NCBI GenBank assembly: GCA_025465355.1
Contig: JAODNN010000112.1
Location: 1 to 64,000 of the forward strand
Source: Blastococcus sp.
Lineage (GTDB): Bacteria > Actinomycetota > Actinomycetes > Mycobacteriales > Geodermatophilaceae
Direction: 5' to 3'
DNA length: 64,000 nucleotides
The notes below the pieces were generated by a model. That model searched no databases, had not been told where the DNA came from, and saw nothing but the letters and a program-made list of their open reading frames with translations. Shown here piece by piece: positions 30,941-35,839 of the stretch. The position numbers and the translations under genes are program-made. Position 1 is the first letter of the stretch. Each line of letters starts with the position of its first letter.

Positions 30941-31930
30941 TCAGCGCCGCCAACCGCGCCACCCGCCCTTCCCTCCCGGTTCCGACCCCTTACCGAGGTG
31001 GCGAGGCGGGTGATGCCGGCCAGTCACTGCGGTGGTCGTGTCACTGCGGTGGTCGTGGTGGGCATGTCTCCAGTGGCGGTGGTCCGTCCTGGTCCGGTCA
31101 CGGTCCCAGGAGGCAGCCCGGTTCGCGTCCACGCCCGGCCGCTCCGCGGAGTGCGACATCCGGACTGCCGCGCCCGCGGAGCAATGGCCGGTGGGGACGC
31201 GGGTCGGGATGGGGGTGCGGCTCATGGGCGTGGCGCTGGTGGGCGTGGTCCTGGTGCTCGTGGTGCTGGTGGGCGTCGCGGGCGTGGTCGTCGCGGGCGT
31301 GGGCGTCGCGGGCGTGGTCGTCGCGGGCGTGGTCGTCGCCGGCGTGGTCGTCGTCGGCGTGGTCGTGGACGTCGCGGGCGTGGTGGTGACCCCGGGGGAG
31401 CCCGTGGGGTGTGCATGGGTGCTCGACGCCACGGAAACGGGCGTGGAACGCGGTGTTGCGGCGGCCGGGACAGTCCGCGTGGCCGCCTTCGCCGCGACCA
31501 CGACGCCCATGACGGCGGCAGAAGCGAACACCGAGGAGCCGCGGCGATTCGACTGCGGCGCCGAGTTCGCGGTCACGGCCACCGACATCGTCTCCGCCGA
31601 CGGCTGACCGGCGGGCGCGGGCGAGGAGCGGTGCACGCCCGGAGCCGGGTCGTGTGCCGGCTCTCCCGTTCCCGACGTCCGCGGCACGAGGAGTGCGTCG
31701 TGCAGCGCCGGGTTGAAATCGCTCAGGGCGGCCCACCCGCTGGCGAGCGTGACGATGAGCAGCGGAACGAGCAGGAAGCAGGTGGCCGCGGCGGCGCGCA
31801 GCCCACGCACGCTGCTGAGTGGCCGGATCCGGGGAGGGATGTAGAGGACCACGGGGCGATGGCGGGGATCGGCCGGCTCAGTGGACGCTGCGCTCCGGCG
31901 GGCTTCCCCGTCCGGTCCGTCGGCATGCAT
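30941..31930 (-). CDS. Membrane protein with Thr/Pro pentapeptide repeats and His-rich tail, coupled to the two-component system
   Basis: Unrecognised 329-residue protein. It has about 45 cytoplasmic residues, a membrane segment (about 46-66, AAAATCFLLVPLLIV), a second weakly hydrophobic stretch (132-150), and a Thr/Pro repeat of the form TTTPA (about 182-222). A basic tail follows with 9 His between residues 284 and 311 (DHRHWRHAHHDH), ending GGKGGWRGWRR. ATG 31930 shares its A with the TGA of the upstream response regulator (TGATG), so it is translationally coupled to that gene and probably real. Third-codon GC is lower in the tail than in neighbours. It could be an accessory sensor, a wall-spanning stalk or the regulated output; no function is claimed. 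Confidence 0.65.
   Translation of the reverse strand: MHADGPDGEARRSAASTEPADPRHRPVVLYIPPRIRPLSSVRGLRAAAATCFLLVPLLIVTLASGWAALSDFNPALHDALLVPRTSGTGEPAHDPAPGVHRSSPAPAGQPSAETMSVAVTANSAPQSNRRGSSVFASAAVMGVVVAAKAATRTVPAAATPRSTPVSVASSTHAHPTGSPGVTTTPATSTTTPTTTTPATTTPATTTPATPTPATTTPATPTSTTSTRTTPTSATPMSRTPIPTRVPTGHCSAGAAVRMSHSAERPGVDANRAASWDRDRTRTDHRHWRHAHHDHRSDTTTAVTGRHHPPRHLGKGSEPGGKGGWRGWRR
31265..31387 (-). repeat. 15-bp coding tandem repeat (TTTPA pentapeptide)
   Basis: About eight degenerate copies of a 15-bp unit (plus strand GTCGTCGCGGGCGTG). On the minus strand the repeat encodes TTTPA/TPTPA-type pentapeptides in the frame of the coupled membrane protein. Length variation between strains is likely. 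Confidence 0.85.
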
Positions 31931-32571
31931 CAGGCCGCACTCCACGGAGGGTGGTCGGCCGGCAGGTGACGCTCAGCCCAGAGCGCTGCCTGCGTGCGGT
32001 CGGAGACCCCGATGCGCTGGAAGATGTGCGTGACGTGAGCCTTGACGGTCCGCTCACTGATCTGCAGACGGCGGGCGATGGACTTGTTCGGGTGCCCGGT
32101 GCGCATCATCTCGAGGACCTGGCGCTCCCGATCGCTGAGGATCCCGGACGGGCTCTCCCGGACATTGGAGATCAGCTCCCGCGCCACGGTCGGGTCCAGG
32201 GGTGCCCGTCCCGCCGCCACCGCGCGCACCCCGGCGAGAATTTCCTCGGCCTCGCACTCCTTGAGGAGGTAACCGTCGGCGCCGGCACGCAGGGCGTCGA
32301 TCACCCGCTCCGCGTCCCCGAACGACGTCAGGATCAGGATGCGCACGTCCTGGCCCGAGCGGCGCAGGGCACGCGTCAGCGCGATGCCGTCCATGGTCGG
32401 CATGGAGAGGTCAAGGACGACGACGTCGGGATCGACCCGCGCGACCAGTTCGAGGGCGTCCGCGCCGTTGGCCGCATCGCCGACGCACTCCAGGTCATCG
32501 GTAGCCGCCATCAGGCCGGCCAAGCCGCTGCGCACCACCGCGTGGTCGTCGACCACGACCACGCGGGTCAC
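31930..32571 (-). CDS. NarL/FixJ-family response regulator
   Basis: Transcription factor of 213 residues. The receiver domain has acidic pocket residues D8/D9 (VVVVDDH), phospho-acceptor D54 (VVLDLSMPTMDG) and the conserved Lys in YLLKECEAEEIL. A LuxR-type HTH follows (LSDRERQVLEMMRTGHPNKSIARRLQISERTVKAHV is read across residues 145-185). GTG 32571 overlaps the kinase stop (GTGA), making a two-gene unit. Targets probably include the divergent ABC gene or its own operon. Confidence 0.93.
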   Translation of the reverse strand: MTRVVVVDDHAVVRSGLAGLMAATDDLECVGDAANGADALELVARVDPDVVVLDLSMPTMDGIALTRALRRSGQDVRILILTSFGDAERVIDALRAGADGYLLKECEAEEILAGVRAVAAGRAPLDPTVARELISNVRESPSGILSDRERQVLEMMRTGHPNKSIARRLQISERTVKAHVTHIFQRIGVSDRTQAALWAERHLPADHPPWSAA

Positions 32572-33896
32572 CGGACCGGCTCCGGAATGCCCGGGGCCGG
32601 GGTCAGTGGCACGGTGATCGTCAAACGCGTCCCCTGACCCGGGGCACTGCGGGCGGTCAGCGAGCCGCCGCCGTCGGCGACGAGGTTCCCGAGGGTCCGC
32701 AGACCCACATGTCCGCCCGCTTGGCGTTCGGCCATCCGCGTCTCGTCGAACCCGCAGCCGTCGTCGTCGATGGTCATCGTCGCCCTCCTTCCGTCCTGCT
32801 GGACGACGATCTCGACCTGCTCGGCCCGGCTGTGCGTGGCGACGTTGCGCAAGGACTCCTGAGCGCATCGGTAGAGCAGCTCCGCGACGGGACGGGGCAG
32901 GTCCTTCGGTGCCTGGACCTGGACGGACACGCCCGTCTCGGCGCCACCCATCTGGTCTCCCAGGACACGCAGCGCCGTATCGAGGCCGCCACTGGGCGCC
33001 CGCGTCTGGACAAGGTCGGAGAGCAGCAACCGCAACTCGCCGATGCACTGGCGCAGTCCGCGGGCCGACCGGCCGACCAGCGCCGACGGTGTGTCGGCAC
33101 CGGGGGCGCCGAGCCGGCTCGCGTCCAGGTCATAGGCGAGACCGGTCATCTCGGGGATGACGTAGTCGTGCACCGCACCGGCGACTCGTCGCCGTTCTGT
33201 TGCGGTCGCCTCTGCGACAGCCGCAGCAAGGGAGGCCTCCGTGCGCAGGTTCCTGCGCGACCGTCGGCCCAGACCGTAGAGGAGCGGTACCTGGACCACC
33301 TCGAGGGCCAGGAGCGCGGCCAGCGCCGGCCGGGCGACCCGCATCCACATGGGGCCGACGGACACCCTGTCCGTGCGGTCGCTGACCTCCACCAGCGTCG
33401 GTGTGCCAGTGGCATCACCGATGCCGACTGCGGCCACGCGCGGGCGGTCACCACTTCCCCCGGTGGCCGAAACGACCGATGCGCTCTGCAGGGCCTGGCG
33501 CTCGCTGGTTCCCAGGGGGGCCGCCGCTTCGGGCCGCGCCGGGTTCCGTGGCCAGAGCAGGTGACCGTCGGCGTCCCGGACGGTGACCTGGGAGACCGAG
33601 CCCGCGGCGATCAGGGATGCCACCCTGCGGTTCATCAGGTCCAGGGCGGCGGGTTCCCCCCGCCGGAGGGCCGGCGTCACCAGGGGCGCGACGACCGAGC
33701 CGGCCGCCACGGCCGCCACTGCCTCGAACGACCGCGCGGCCTGGTCGTCACTGGCACGCACCACGAGCACGCCGGCGGGGACGGCAAGTGCGGTTGCCAC
33801 CACGAGGCCGGCGAGGGCGTACCGGGCAACCGAGACCGCCGCCACGACGTGGCGGTTCTGCAGGGCGGCCTTCCGGTACGGGATGGTGCGAATCAC
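32568..33896 (-). CDS. NarL-type sensor histidine kinase
   Basis: Membrane HisKA_3 kinase of 442 residues. Two membrane segments (about 18-46 and 188-209) bracket a roughly 140-residue extracellular domain of unknown ligand (47-187). Phospho-acceptor H243 lies in ERRRVAGAVHDYV, the N-box is at AQESLRNVATHS (N351) and the G-box is DDDGCGFD (377-384). It starts at GTG 33896 with no Shine-Dalgarno sequence and a -10 hexamer 7 nt upstream. The extracellular domain has few Cys or His and no obvious family. Confidence 0.9.
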   Translation of the reverse strand: MIRTIPYRKAALQNRHVVAAVSVARYALAGLVVATALAVPAGVLVVRASDDQAARSFEAVAAVAAGSVVAPLVTPALRRGEPAALDLMNRRVASLIAAGSVSQVTVRDADGHLLWPRNPARPEAAAPLGTSERQALQSASVVSATGGSGDRPRVAAVGIGDATGTPTLVEVSDRTDRVSVGPMWMRVARPALAALLALEVVQVPLLYGLGRRSRRNLRTEASLAAAVAEATATERRRVAGAVHDYVIPEMTGLAYDLDASRLGAPGADTPSALVGRSARGLRQCIGELRLLLSDLVQTRAPSGGLDTALRVLGDQMGGAETGVSVQVQAPKDLPRPVAELLYRCAQESLRNVATHSRAEQVEIVVQQDGRRATMTIDDDGCGFDETRMAERQAGGHVGLRTLGNLVADGGGSLTARSAPGQGTRLTITVPLTPAPGIPEPVR

Positions 33897-33903
33897 AGGT
33901 CAG

Positions 33904-33909
33904 ATGCTA
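33904..33909 (-). promoter_or_regulatory. -10 element for the kinase operon (probable leaderless start)
   Basis: On the minus strand TAGCAT lies 7 nt before the kinase GTG. It is in the 122-nt divergent gap shared with the ABC exporter gene. The same gap holds GGTACTAGTCC (33960-33970), a near-palindrome resembling NarL/DevR-type half-sites; assigning it as an operator is only a guess. Confidence 0.4.
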
Positions 33910-34018
33910 GGTCTCCGGCTCCGTGTTGACGGCGATTTTCGTGCGCCTTCCGTTCCCGCAGGTACTAGTCCGAAGGTCCACTGGAAGTTGCCCGCCGACT
34001 GCGCAGAGGATCGTCGCC

Positions 34019-35839
34019 GTGTCGGCGCACGCGGCCCCACGCACACCGGGCCCGTTCCAGCTCGCCGTCCCCTATCTCCGGCCGGAGAGGGGGCGGCTCC
34101 TACTCGGCGCGGGGGCGGCCGGCCTCGAGATCGCATGCCGGCTTCTGGCACCGTGGCCGCTCGCGCTGGCCATCGACCATGCGCTGGCGGGGCGCCCGCT
34201 CACCGGTCCCATGCGCGCGCTCGCCGGGCTCGACCGCTCAGGCCTGCTGGTGGCCGCCGGTGTCGCCACGGTCGTTCTCAGCACCCTCGGCGGGTTGCTC
34301 GGCACCCTGCGCACGTCCATCTCGGAGCGGGCGGCGGAGCGGGTGGGGGGAGCATTGCGGGCCGCCCTGTTCGCGCACGTGTTGTCCCTCTCCCTGCGGT
34401 GGCACGACCGGACGTGCACCGGTGAGGTCATCTCCCGGCTGACCTCCGACGTCTCGAGGTTGCTCGACGCGCTGGTCAGCATCTGCAGGGCCGTGGTGCC
34501 GAACGCCCTCCTGCTGGTGGGAGCCCTCACCATCCTGGCGACCGTCGACCCGCGACTGGCCGCCCTTGGTCTCATCGTGCTGCCGGTAGTCGCCTGGCTG
34601 ACCGTCCACCAGCCCCGGCGTCTGCGTGCCGCCGAACTTGCGGCGCGGGAGGCTTCGGGCCGGATGACGGCGACGGCGTCGGACCTCCTCTGCAACGTCC
34701 GGGCCGTGCAGGCCTTCGGCCGACTGGACCGGGCAGCCGCGATCTTCGGCCGACCGAACCGGCGGGCCGTCGCCGCGGAGATGCGCGCGGTGGGGACCGG
34801 GGCCCGGTGGGCACCGGTGCCGGACATCCTCATCGCCGTCGGCACGGGCGCGGTCCTGGTGGCCGGCGGGCTGCAGCTGGGCTCGGGGCTGCTCACCGTC
34901 GGTGAGTTCGTGGTCGTGCTCATGTACCTCGGGGACCTGCAGTCGCCGATCCGGAGCCTCGTCCGTCTGGCGAGCGTGCGGGCGAAGGCGGGTGTCAGCG
35001 CGGCTCGTCTGCACGAGGTTCTCGGCTGCCCCGAGGCGGTGCCGGAACCCCGGGTGCCCCGGCCGGTGCCCCCCGTCTGGGAAGGACTGCGGCTGGAGTC
35101 CGTGTGGTTCTCCTATGCCGAGGGTCGTCCCGTCCTCGCCGACTTCGATCTGACCGTCGCGGCGGCCGAGACGGTCTGCCTGTTCGGTCCGAGAGGTGCG
35201 GGCAAGAGCACCGTGCTCCAGCTGCTCCTCCGGCTTTACGACGTCGACGCCGGGCGCGTGGTCGTCGACGGGGTCGACGTGCGTGAGCTCTCCCCGATCG
35301 AGCTGCGTCACCAGCTGGCGTTCGTGCCACAGGACCCGTGGCTGCTCGACGGGACGATCGCGGAGAACATCGCCTTCGGCTCGTGCACCGCCACGCGGGC
35401 CCAGGTGCTGGCGGCAGGGCGCTCCGCGTGGGTCGACGAGTTCGCCGTGTTCCTGCCCGAGGGGTACGACACTCCGCTGGGGGAGTGCGGCGTGCGCCTG
35501 TCCTGCGGCCAGCGTCGTCGCGTCGCGCTGGCGCGGGCGGTGGTGTCCGCGGCCCCGGTCATCCTGCTGGACGAGCTCACCGCCTCCCTCGACGCAGAGG
35601 CGGCGCGGCAGGTGGTCGGCGCCATCCGCTCCGCCACCCGCGACCGCACCGTCCTGCTGGCCACCCACGATCCCGTCCTGGCGGCGATCGCCGACCGGAC
35701 GGTGTACGTCGCTCCTGAATGGCGGGACGACTCCGTGCCCGTCGCCGGGCAGGTGCTTCCCCCGCAGGCCGCTGCTCAGCCGGGCACCCCGAACTCCGAT
35801 TCCGCCGTGGCTACGAGCGCCGGACGCGTGAGCGGGTGA
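34019..35839 (+). CDS. Exporter-type ABC half-transporter (membrane and ATPase domains fused)
   Basis: Type IV ABC exporter subunit of 606 residues, expected to work as a dimer. An N-terminal six-helix membrane domain (about 30-320) is followed by the ATPase with Walker A GPRGAGKST (390-398), Q-loop VPQDPWLLDGTIAENIAFG, signature LSCGQ (494-498, instead of LSGGQ), Walker B LLDELT (Pro of DEPT is Leu) and H-loop ATHD. GTG 34019 has AGAGGA at good spacing; the open frame upstream lacks homology. It is divergent from the two-component operon and is its likely target. Substrate unknown. Confidence 0.9.
   Translation: MSAHAAPRTPGPFQLAVPYLRPERGRLLLGAGAAGLEIACRLLAPWPLALAIDHALAGRPLTGPMRALAGLDRSGLLVAAGVATVVLSTLGGLLGTLRTSISERAAERVGGALRAALFAHVLSLSLRWHDRTCTGEVISRLTSDVSRLLDALVSICRAVVPNALLLVGALTILATVDPRLAALGLIVLPVVAWLTVHQPRRLRAAELAAREASGRMTATASDLLCNVRAVQAFGRLDRAAAIFGRPNRRAVAAEMRAVGTGARWAPVPDILIAVGTGAVLVAGGLQLGSGLLTVGEFVVVLMYLGDLQSPIRSLVRLASVRAKAGVSAARLHEVLGCPEAVPEPRVPRPVPPVWEGLRLESVWFSYAEGRPVLADFDLTVAAAETVCLFGPRGAGKSTVLQLLLRLYDVDAGRVVVDGVDVRELSPIELRHQLAFVPQDPWLLDGTIAENIAFGSCTATRAQVLAAGRSAWVDEFAVFLPEGYDTPLGECGVRLSCGQRRRVALARAVVSAAPVILLDELTASLDAEAARQVVGAIRSATRDRTVLLATHDPVLAAIADRTVYVAPEWRDDSVPVAGQVLPPQAAAQPGTPNSDSAVATSAGRVSG

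Follow-up and report, generated by a model that had tools for sequence, protein, structure and literature searches.

A kinase, regulator and membrane-protein gene module with a divergent ABC exporter and a candidate operator between rsmB and rpe in Blastococcus

The stretch of DNA analysed here, referred to as the window, comprises 64,000 nucleotides from Blastococcus sp. (family Geodermatophilaceae; assembly GCA_025465355.1, contig JAODNN010000112.1, positions 1 to 64,000 of the forward strand), and its subject is a candidate three-component signalling module that lies between rsmB and rpe. The order of the locus is rsmB, an apparent operon of a third gene, a response regulator gene and a sensor histidine kinase gene, a divergent exporter gene, a GPP34-like gene and rpe. 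A first-pass annotation had described the three minus-strand genes as coupled by GTGA and TGATG overlaps, with a one-piece ATP-binding cassette (ABC) exporter lying divergently, and both descriptions are borne out by direct reading of the junctions and by Pfam. The kinase gene (32568..33896, minus strand, 442 amino acids (aa)) meets the regulator gene (31930..32571, minus strand, 213 aa) at ...CGGTGACC with a GTGA overlap, the regulator gene meets the third gene (30941..31930, minus strand, 329 aa) at ...CCTGATGC with a TGATG overlap, and the exporter reading frame runs on the plus strand to 35839. Between the stop codons of the third gene and the convergent rsmB lie 3 bp. The start codons of kinase and exporter are 122 bp apart when the exporter start is taken as 34019, and this gap holds a conserved 23-bp box, CAGTGGACCTTCGGACTAGTACC (33961..33983, minus strand), a candidate operator for the regulator, with 65 bp separating it from the start of the kinase gene and 36 bp from that of the exporter gene. 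Directly 5' of the kinase start stands a -10-like TAGCAT (33904..33909, minus strand), read by eye.

The kinase, its regulator and the predicted sensor fold

The kinase carries a HATPase_c domain (1.6e-12) and the regulator carries Response_reg (8.6e-28) and GerE (2.2e-21) domains, all above the Pfam cut-offs, a combination of HATPase_c kinase and REC-GerE regulator that places the pair among the NarL/DesK-type (NarL/LuxR-type for the regulator) two-component systems. The HisKA_3 match of the kinase (8.1e-4) reaches 20.3 bits and falls below the 24-bit Pfam cut-off; the phospho-acceptor histidine is conserved across 23 aligned kinases, with H243, N351 and the G-box residues invariant. The closest solved catalytic core is that of DesK, in PDB profile as well as fold searches, and the best NCBIfam matches both stay below their cut-offs (MctS, 99.5 of 700 bits; NarL, 184 of 250). 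At E <= 1e-60 the kinase family is present in 35 of 296 sampled genomes of the class, the window genome included.

Two predicted membrane helices flank the extracytoplasmic part of the kinase, and a model of residues 38-186 (pLDDT 83, pTM 0.78) has CitA (Z 11.0), DctB (10.1-10.3) and WalK (11.6) among its best structural matches, beside chemoreceptor Cache domains. In Foldseek the best match is again CitA (E 8.4e-4), one of two PDB chains at E <= 0.001. The sensor is therefore predicted to be a PAS-like fold of the PDC/Cache type held between two membrane helices.

The third gene and its distribution

The third gene encodes a single-pass membrane protein whose conserved part is residues 19-72 (31715..31876, minus strand), consisting of a DPRHRPVVL motif, a basic linker and a membrane helix with the end ...LASGWA. 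In an alignment of 17 N-termini D21, R25 and W66 are invariant, next to the start methionine, and dN/dS values of 0.29-0.63 for motif and helix in eight genes of the genomes labelled g3 here indicate purifying selection, while the tail gives 0.51-1.41 (seven of the eight, G043b being left out; genomes and loci of the sample are cited by G and L numbers). The tail consists for 41-62% of proline, alanine and threonine in 17 copies (three cut by contig ends, G043a left out), and in the window it includes a Thr/Pro/Ala repeat segment (residues 182-221; 31268..31387, minus strand) and an Asp/His-rich segment (residues 268-307; 31010..31129, minus strand) with 14 Asp and His in 40 residues, where the background maximum over 151 proteins is 12. 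At least 14 Asp and His per 40-residue segment are reached in 8 of the 13 closed copies; the remaining five stay under 12, as does the 191-aa G043b, which is outside the 13. Read two bases on, on the same strand, the Thr/Pro/Ala repeats at 31268-31387 become Asp/His repeats (DDHARDDHARD), so that a frameshift would swap the tail types.

Taken whole, the third gene has a codon score of -0.01 per codon against 0.29-0.38 for the kinase, regulator, exporter and rsmB genes; its first 80 codons (0.20) are the sole part that scores as coding. An antisense reading frame at 31032-31607 scores 0.32, above the third-gene frame and notably through the repeats. I nevertheless disfavour it as a real gene, as motif and helix on the minus strand are conserved and selected, and the coding status of the third gene's N-terminus is settled by its conservation across relatives.

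The distribution of the module was followed in 112 genomes of the family, with a close kinase defined by E <= 1.1e-80 and a strong carrier of the third protein by E <= 1e-20 against a profile of its N-terminus. A close kinase is found in 19 genomes, and in 15 of these the third gene stands directly behind the regulator. The search with the non-repeat N-terminus, which the first-pass annotation had recommended, returned 17 strong carriers spanning three genera, and in all 17 the third gene lies directly behind a regulator of the kinase's clade. Among the less regular cases, G060 has its third gene and regulator end on a second contig, G033 has regulator and third gene with the kinase not on the same contig, and G052 lacks a third gene at its main kinase locus and has one solely at a second site, where a regulator fragment of 154 aa precedes it. 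The start codon of the third gene overlaps the regulator stop in all tabulated carriers except G096. Both copies in G043 are short: G043b has 191 codons, and G043a stops after 42, close to the end of a contig.

From the kinase loci of G019, G020 and G107 the third gene is absent. The kinases of these three genomes and of G052 form one clade (support 100/98; 89/85 for their regulators; the kinase tree omits G043b, on a chimeric contig, and the regulator tree the partial G060 regulator), so that a single evolutionary change explains the absence. In a wider, midpoint-rooted kinase tree (L109 left out) the kinase of Microlunatus flavus falls together with those of the family clade (SH-aLRT 99) and the 15 third-carrying kinases form one group (96), with the no-third kinases branching beside it in no resolved order; the change would be a single loss if the third-like gene of M. 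flavus is homologous, and if it is not, the gene would have been gained once in the other lineages. The first-pass annotation had called the third protein fixed and of unknown family. Fixed it is with respect to the clade regulator in the strong carriers, but not throughout the kinase tree; as to its family, it has no match at E <= 0.1 in Pfam or NCBIfam, LiaF-like ones included.

In 397 genomes of the order the third-protein search gave 12 matches at E <= 0.001, six of them in family members, and the other six (7.3e-5 to 7.1e-4) are weak and were taken as chance matches without a closer look. Within the family, G039 gave a second match (2.4e-4), and seven more genomes matched more weakly (E 0.0026 to 0.0089).

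The box, the exporter and tethered-protein genes near related kinases

In the gap between kinase and exporter the box is common to G034, G096, G095, G019 and G020, and partial in G107 and G098. With up to 3 mismatches, the window genome (4.9 Mb) holds one site and none for the reversed-pattern control, and the 112 family genomes hold 14 sites in 13 genomes (control 9 sites). All seven exact family sites are at this locus, that of G033 lying beside the exporter at a contig end. Of the seven inexact ones (2-3 mismatches), only the site of G107 lies upstream of its kinase, and as the control gave nine sites such matches carry little weight alone; the other six, in G052, G054, G068, G073 and G074, stand beside other genes and not at kinase loci, and were set aside. 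Those in G073 and G074 (L098, L099) lie upstream of similar, putatively reductase-like genes.

Across the 397 order genomes, with up to 2 mismatches, five genomes match (the window genome, G019, G020, G150 and G129; control 2 genomes), and in G150 and G129, which belong to another family, the box is near a homologous kinase. A looser pattern, also with up to 2 mismatches, was run on 13 genomes picked since box or kinase was already known there, and gave 17 sites (reversed-pattern control 2), 14 at a kinase locus and 3 elsewhere; the ten exact sites are all at such a locus, and G107 is without a site at this setting. A core, GGNNCTAGNNCC, to which the box of the window itself does not conform, has 29 occurrences in 963,521 bp of loci; 9 are in 70 stretches upstream of kinases, versus 0.99 expected.

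The exporter gene (34019..35839, plus strand, 606 aa) more likely starts at 34019 than at 33923, as can be inferred from the corresponding starts of the neighbours' exporters, and from 34019 the protein is 52-70.5% identical to five of these; relatives are found in G034, G096, G060, G019 and M. flavus. Its ABC_membrane (1e-30) and ABC_tran (7.2e-25) domains in Pfam make it a one-piece fusion of transmembrane and nucleotide-binding domains, of the MsbA-like fused type. Because all of the best 25 of 184 matched NCBIfam models are below cut-off, I assign no substrate class. The gene-order comparison proposed in the first-pass annotation finds the order kinase, regulator and third gene recurring, but the exporter adjoining the kinase in just 6 of the 19 kinase genomes (the window genome, G034, G096, G019, G020 and G060). 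It is thus a frequent, non-obligatory partner, and with 13 of the 19 lacking it beside the kinase I reject it as an obligatory part.

Some neighbouring genes deserve mention. A small protein kinase-like gene adjoins the exporter in G034, G096, G020, G060 and M. flavus (L039:3548-4438, L040:671-1588, L049:5986-6903, L054:3945-4877, L122:2097-2948; the Pfam search covered G034, G096 and M. flavus). It is not there in the window, and the window genome has no close copy of it (best 32-35%). A GPP34-like (Golgi phosphoprotein 3-like) gene by Pfam, at 36511-35882, lies between exporter and rpe and adjoins the module in G034 too. In M. tuberculosis rsmB and rpe are adjacent; in G053 rsmB adjoins a putative rpe (L055:11896-14055), and the kinase operon is located elsewhere in that genome, between putative priA-like and def-like genes.

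A genome scan for relatives of the kinase gave at least 80 loci, of which L122 and L123 were looked into. The M. flavus locus repeats the arrangement: kinase, regulator and a third-like gene are accompanied by a divergent exporter and a protein kinase-like gene. In other families and genera, related kinases have in their neighbourhood genes, here called tether genes, whose products have a signal-like or membrane helix followed by repeats rich in Asp, His, Gly and Ser. The tether gene faces the regulator in L232 and L234-L238, lies downstream on the same strand in L108 and L116 (third-like in L122), and is upstream of the kinase in L106, L107, L247, L252 and L260; at four other-family loci (L234-L237), with the same kinase type, a full box stands in front of an Asp/His-rich tether gene. 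Counted by one rule, the kinase flanks (154,924 bp) contain 14 tether genes, five of them third genes of the window's family, and the rest of the same 69 loci (619,359 bp) contains one, a ratio that is just indicative, as the rule post-dates the pattern and misses several third genes; it finds no tether gene in 29 of the 32 loci L239-L270.

Two groups of secreted proteins were also noted near related kinases. One (GDFAVxVNGTxYNP...) is found at L106:7241-8155 and at L122:8003-8956, where Pfam and NCBIfam give no match for the protein and the gene is preceded by a site that resembles the box with 4 mismatches; the other (SGxCSxxSTW...) is found at L106:6776-7171 and L113:7914-8315.

A proposed circuit, its rivals and known systems

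As a genomic unit the three-component module is well supported: gene order, overlaps, conservation, selection pattern and the recurrence and rarity of the box can all be read in the DNA, and since relatives repeat the pattern the proposed three-part signalling circuit looks real. Its mechanism can be proposed from there. The reading that I tentatively favour, at somewhat short of an even chance, is that of a two-component circuit which acts locally, senses the envelope, regulates itself and the exporter, and is made together with a partner tethered to the membrane. The kinase would sample a ligand or stress outside the membrane via its PDC/Cache-type PAS domain and would phosphorylate the NarL-type regulator, which in turn would occupy the 23-bp box that separates the two divergent promoters and thereby control both the exporter and the operon from which it is itself made. 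The third protein would be translated from the same message as kinase and regulator; its conserved DPxxRPVVL segment in the cytosol and the membrane helix that ends in Trp would place it next to the kinase, with a disordered tail extending outside as far as the wall. As a feedback partner it might tune the kinase, like MgrB for PhoQ and SbiT for SbiS. In this scheme I infer co-transcription, box binding, contact with the kinase and the export function from sequence. The third protein could be a partner, a feedback regulator or an output, and is most likely a product of the regulon that may also tune the kinase.

Several observations weigh against this circuit. One clade of kinases lacks the third gene: kinase and regulator are kept without it in 3 of the 19 kinase genomes and at the main locus of G052, cases of the kind that the first-pass annotation had named as refuting its reading. 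The inexact box matches in the family (7) are no commoner than the control sites (9), and at up to 3 mismatches no box was found at the third-gene loci of the g3 genomes. For the sensor model just two PDB chains pass the Foldseek threshold given above, and the tether-gene rule was written after the pattern had been seen on some of the same loci. Finally, the tethers of distant relatives have a signal-like N-terminus and lack the DPxxRPVVL segment, for which reason I claim no homology between tethers and third protein and regard a pure output role as nearly as likely as the feedback partner.

On that alternative, possible although I would not bet on it, the third protein would be a wall-spanning or cation-binding surface protein, induced by the circuit and without effect on the kinase. 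The Asp/His-rich tethers of other families, convergent or upstream and at several loci with the box in front, behave as a plain target would, and the composition of the third protein's tail is unusual. However, conservation in the third protein falls on the cytosolic segment and the membrane helix rather than on the tail, and wherever the gene was found in the 17 carriers of the family it stood behind the regulator.

The third gene might instead be a hitch-hiker, a reading frame of low complexity that drifts and has only by chance been retained next to the regulator, and the ambiguous codon scores and dN/dS of the tail, the clade without the gene and the short copies in G043 (42 and 191 aa) agree with that; selection on the N-terminus, 17 carriers in three genera and the nearly constant overlap of its start with the regulator stop make it improbable. 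Quite unlikely, too, is that kinase, regulator and exporter are the true unit, a drug- or peptide-sensing detoxification module whose exporter the third protein would serve, for although kinase and exporter genes diverge in the window, G034, G096, G019, G020, G060 and M. flavus, most g3 genomes retain the third gene with no exporter next to it, and G019 and G020 have kept the exporter and lack the third gene.

Beyond the window, the module may be one case of a widespread, undescribed actinobacterial class, a suggestion that I make with clear reserve: a DesK-type kinase with a PDC sensor, a NarL-type regulator, a disordered Asp/His-rich tether acting as feedback partner or as cation or polymer antenna, and one dedicated local box of 22-23 bp, in at least three gene orders (tether, kinase, regulator; kinase, regulator, tether; kinase and regulator facing the tether). 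Among the literature matches listed for the box string and for the topic, no title or beginning of an abstract describes the circuit. With a single-site candidate operator and a partner whose anchor is kept and whose tail drifts, the module lends itself to testing how tethered helpers are recruited by kinases, and if the Asp/His-rich tethers do bind cations or wall polymers, they would be a pointer to the signal of the kinase family.

Among known systems, PhoQ/PhoP with MgrB or SafA resembles the present module in combining a PAS-like sensor kinase with a single-pass membrane protein. According to PMC8534201, the periplasmic PAS-like sensor kinase PhoQ is tuned by single-pass MgrB, whose gene is itself regulated by PhoQ/PhoP and in whose membrane helix Trp20 is a key residue. 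Unlike MgrB, which at 47 aa is too short for a long tail, the third gene here is part of the operon, next to a kinase with a DesK-type core and a NarL-type regulator. SbiBA-SbiTRS of Stenotrophomonas, as described in PMC9769818, likewise has a membrane protein, a two-component pair and an ABC-type efflux pump in one cluster, with SbiT holding SbiS at rest and the pump in the regulon; I claim no homology, and the exporter in the window is, in contrast, one fused polypeptide. In LiaFSR an accessory protein represses kinase and regulator (PMC3543457). It shares with the present module the set of kinase, regulator and accessory protein, and the LiaS model of NCBIfam matches weakly (58 bits of a 450 cut-off), but the third protein has no LiaF-like match in Pfam or NCBIfam. 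LiaS is not known to have a Cache domain. For mycobacteria, PMC12338722 describes TapA as interacting with the sensor kinase MtrB and activating its pathway. That is a partner protein of an actinobacterial sensor kinase, as proposed here. The kinase class of MtrB differs from that of the window, and the genes of TapA and MtrB are unlinked. DesK/DesR shares the DesK-type catalytic core, and DesK senses via several membrane helices and is not known to have a Cache domain. Kinases with membrane partners, such as MgrB, LiaF, SbiT and TapA, are of a known kind; the apparent novelty here is a tethered tail that drifts, together with a box private to the locus, and the recurrence of both in different gene orders.

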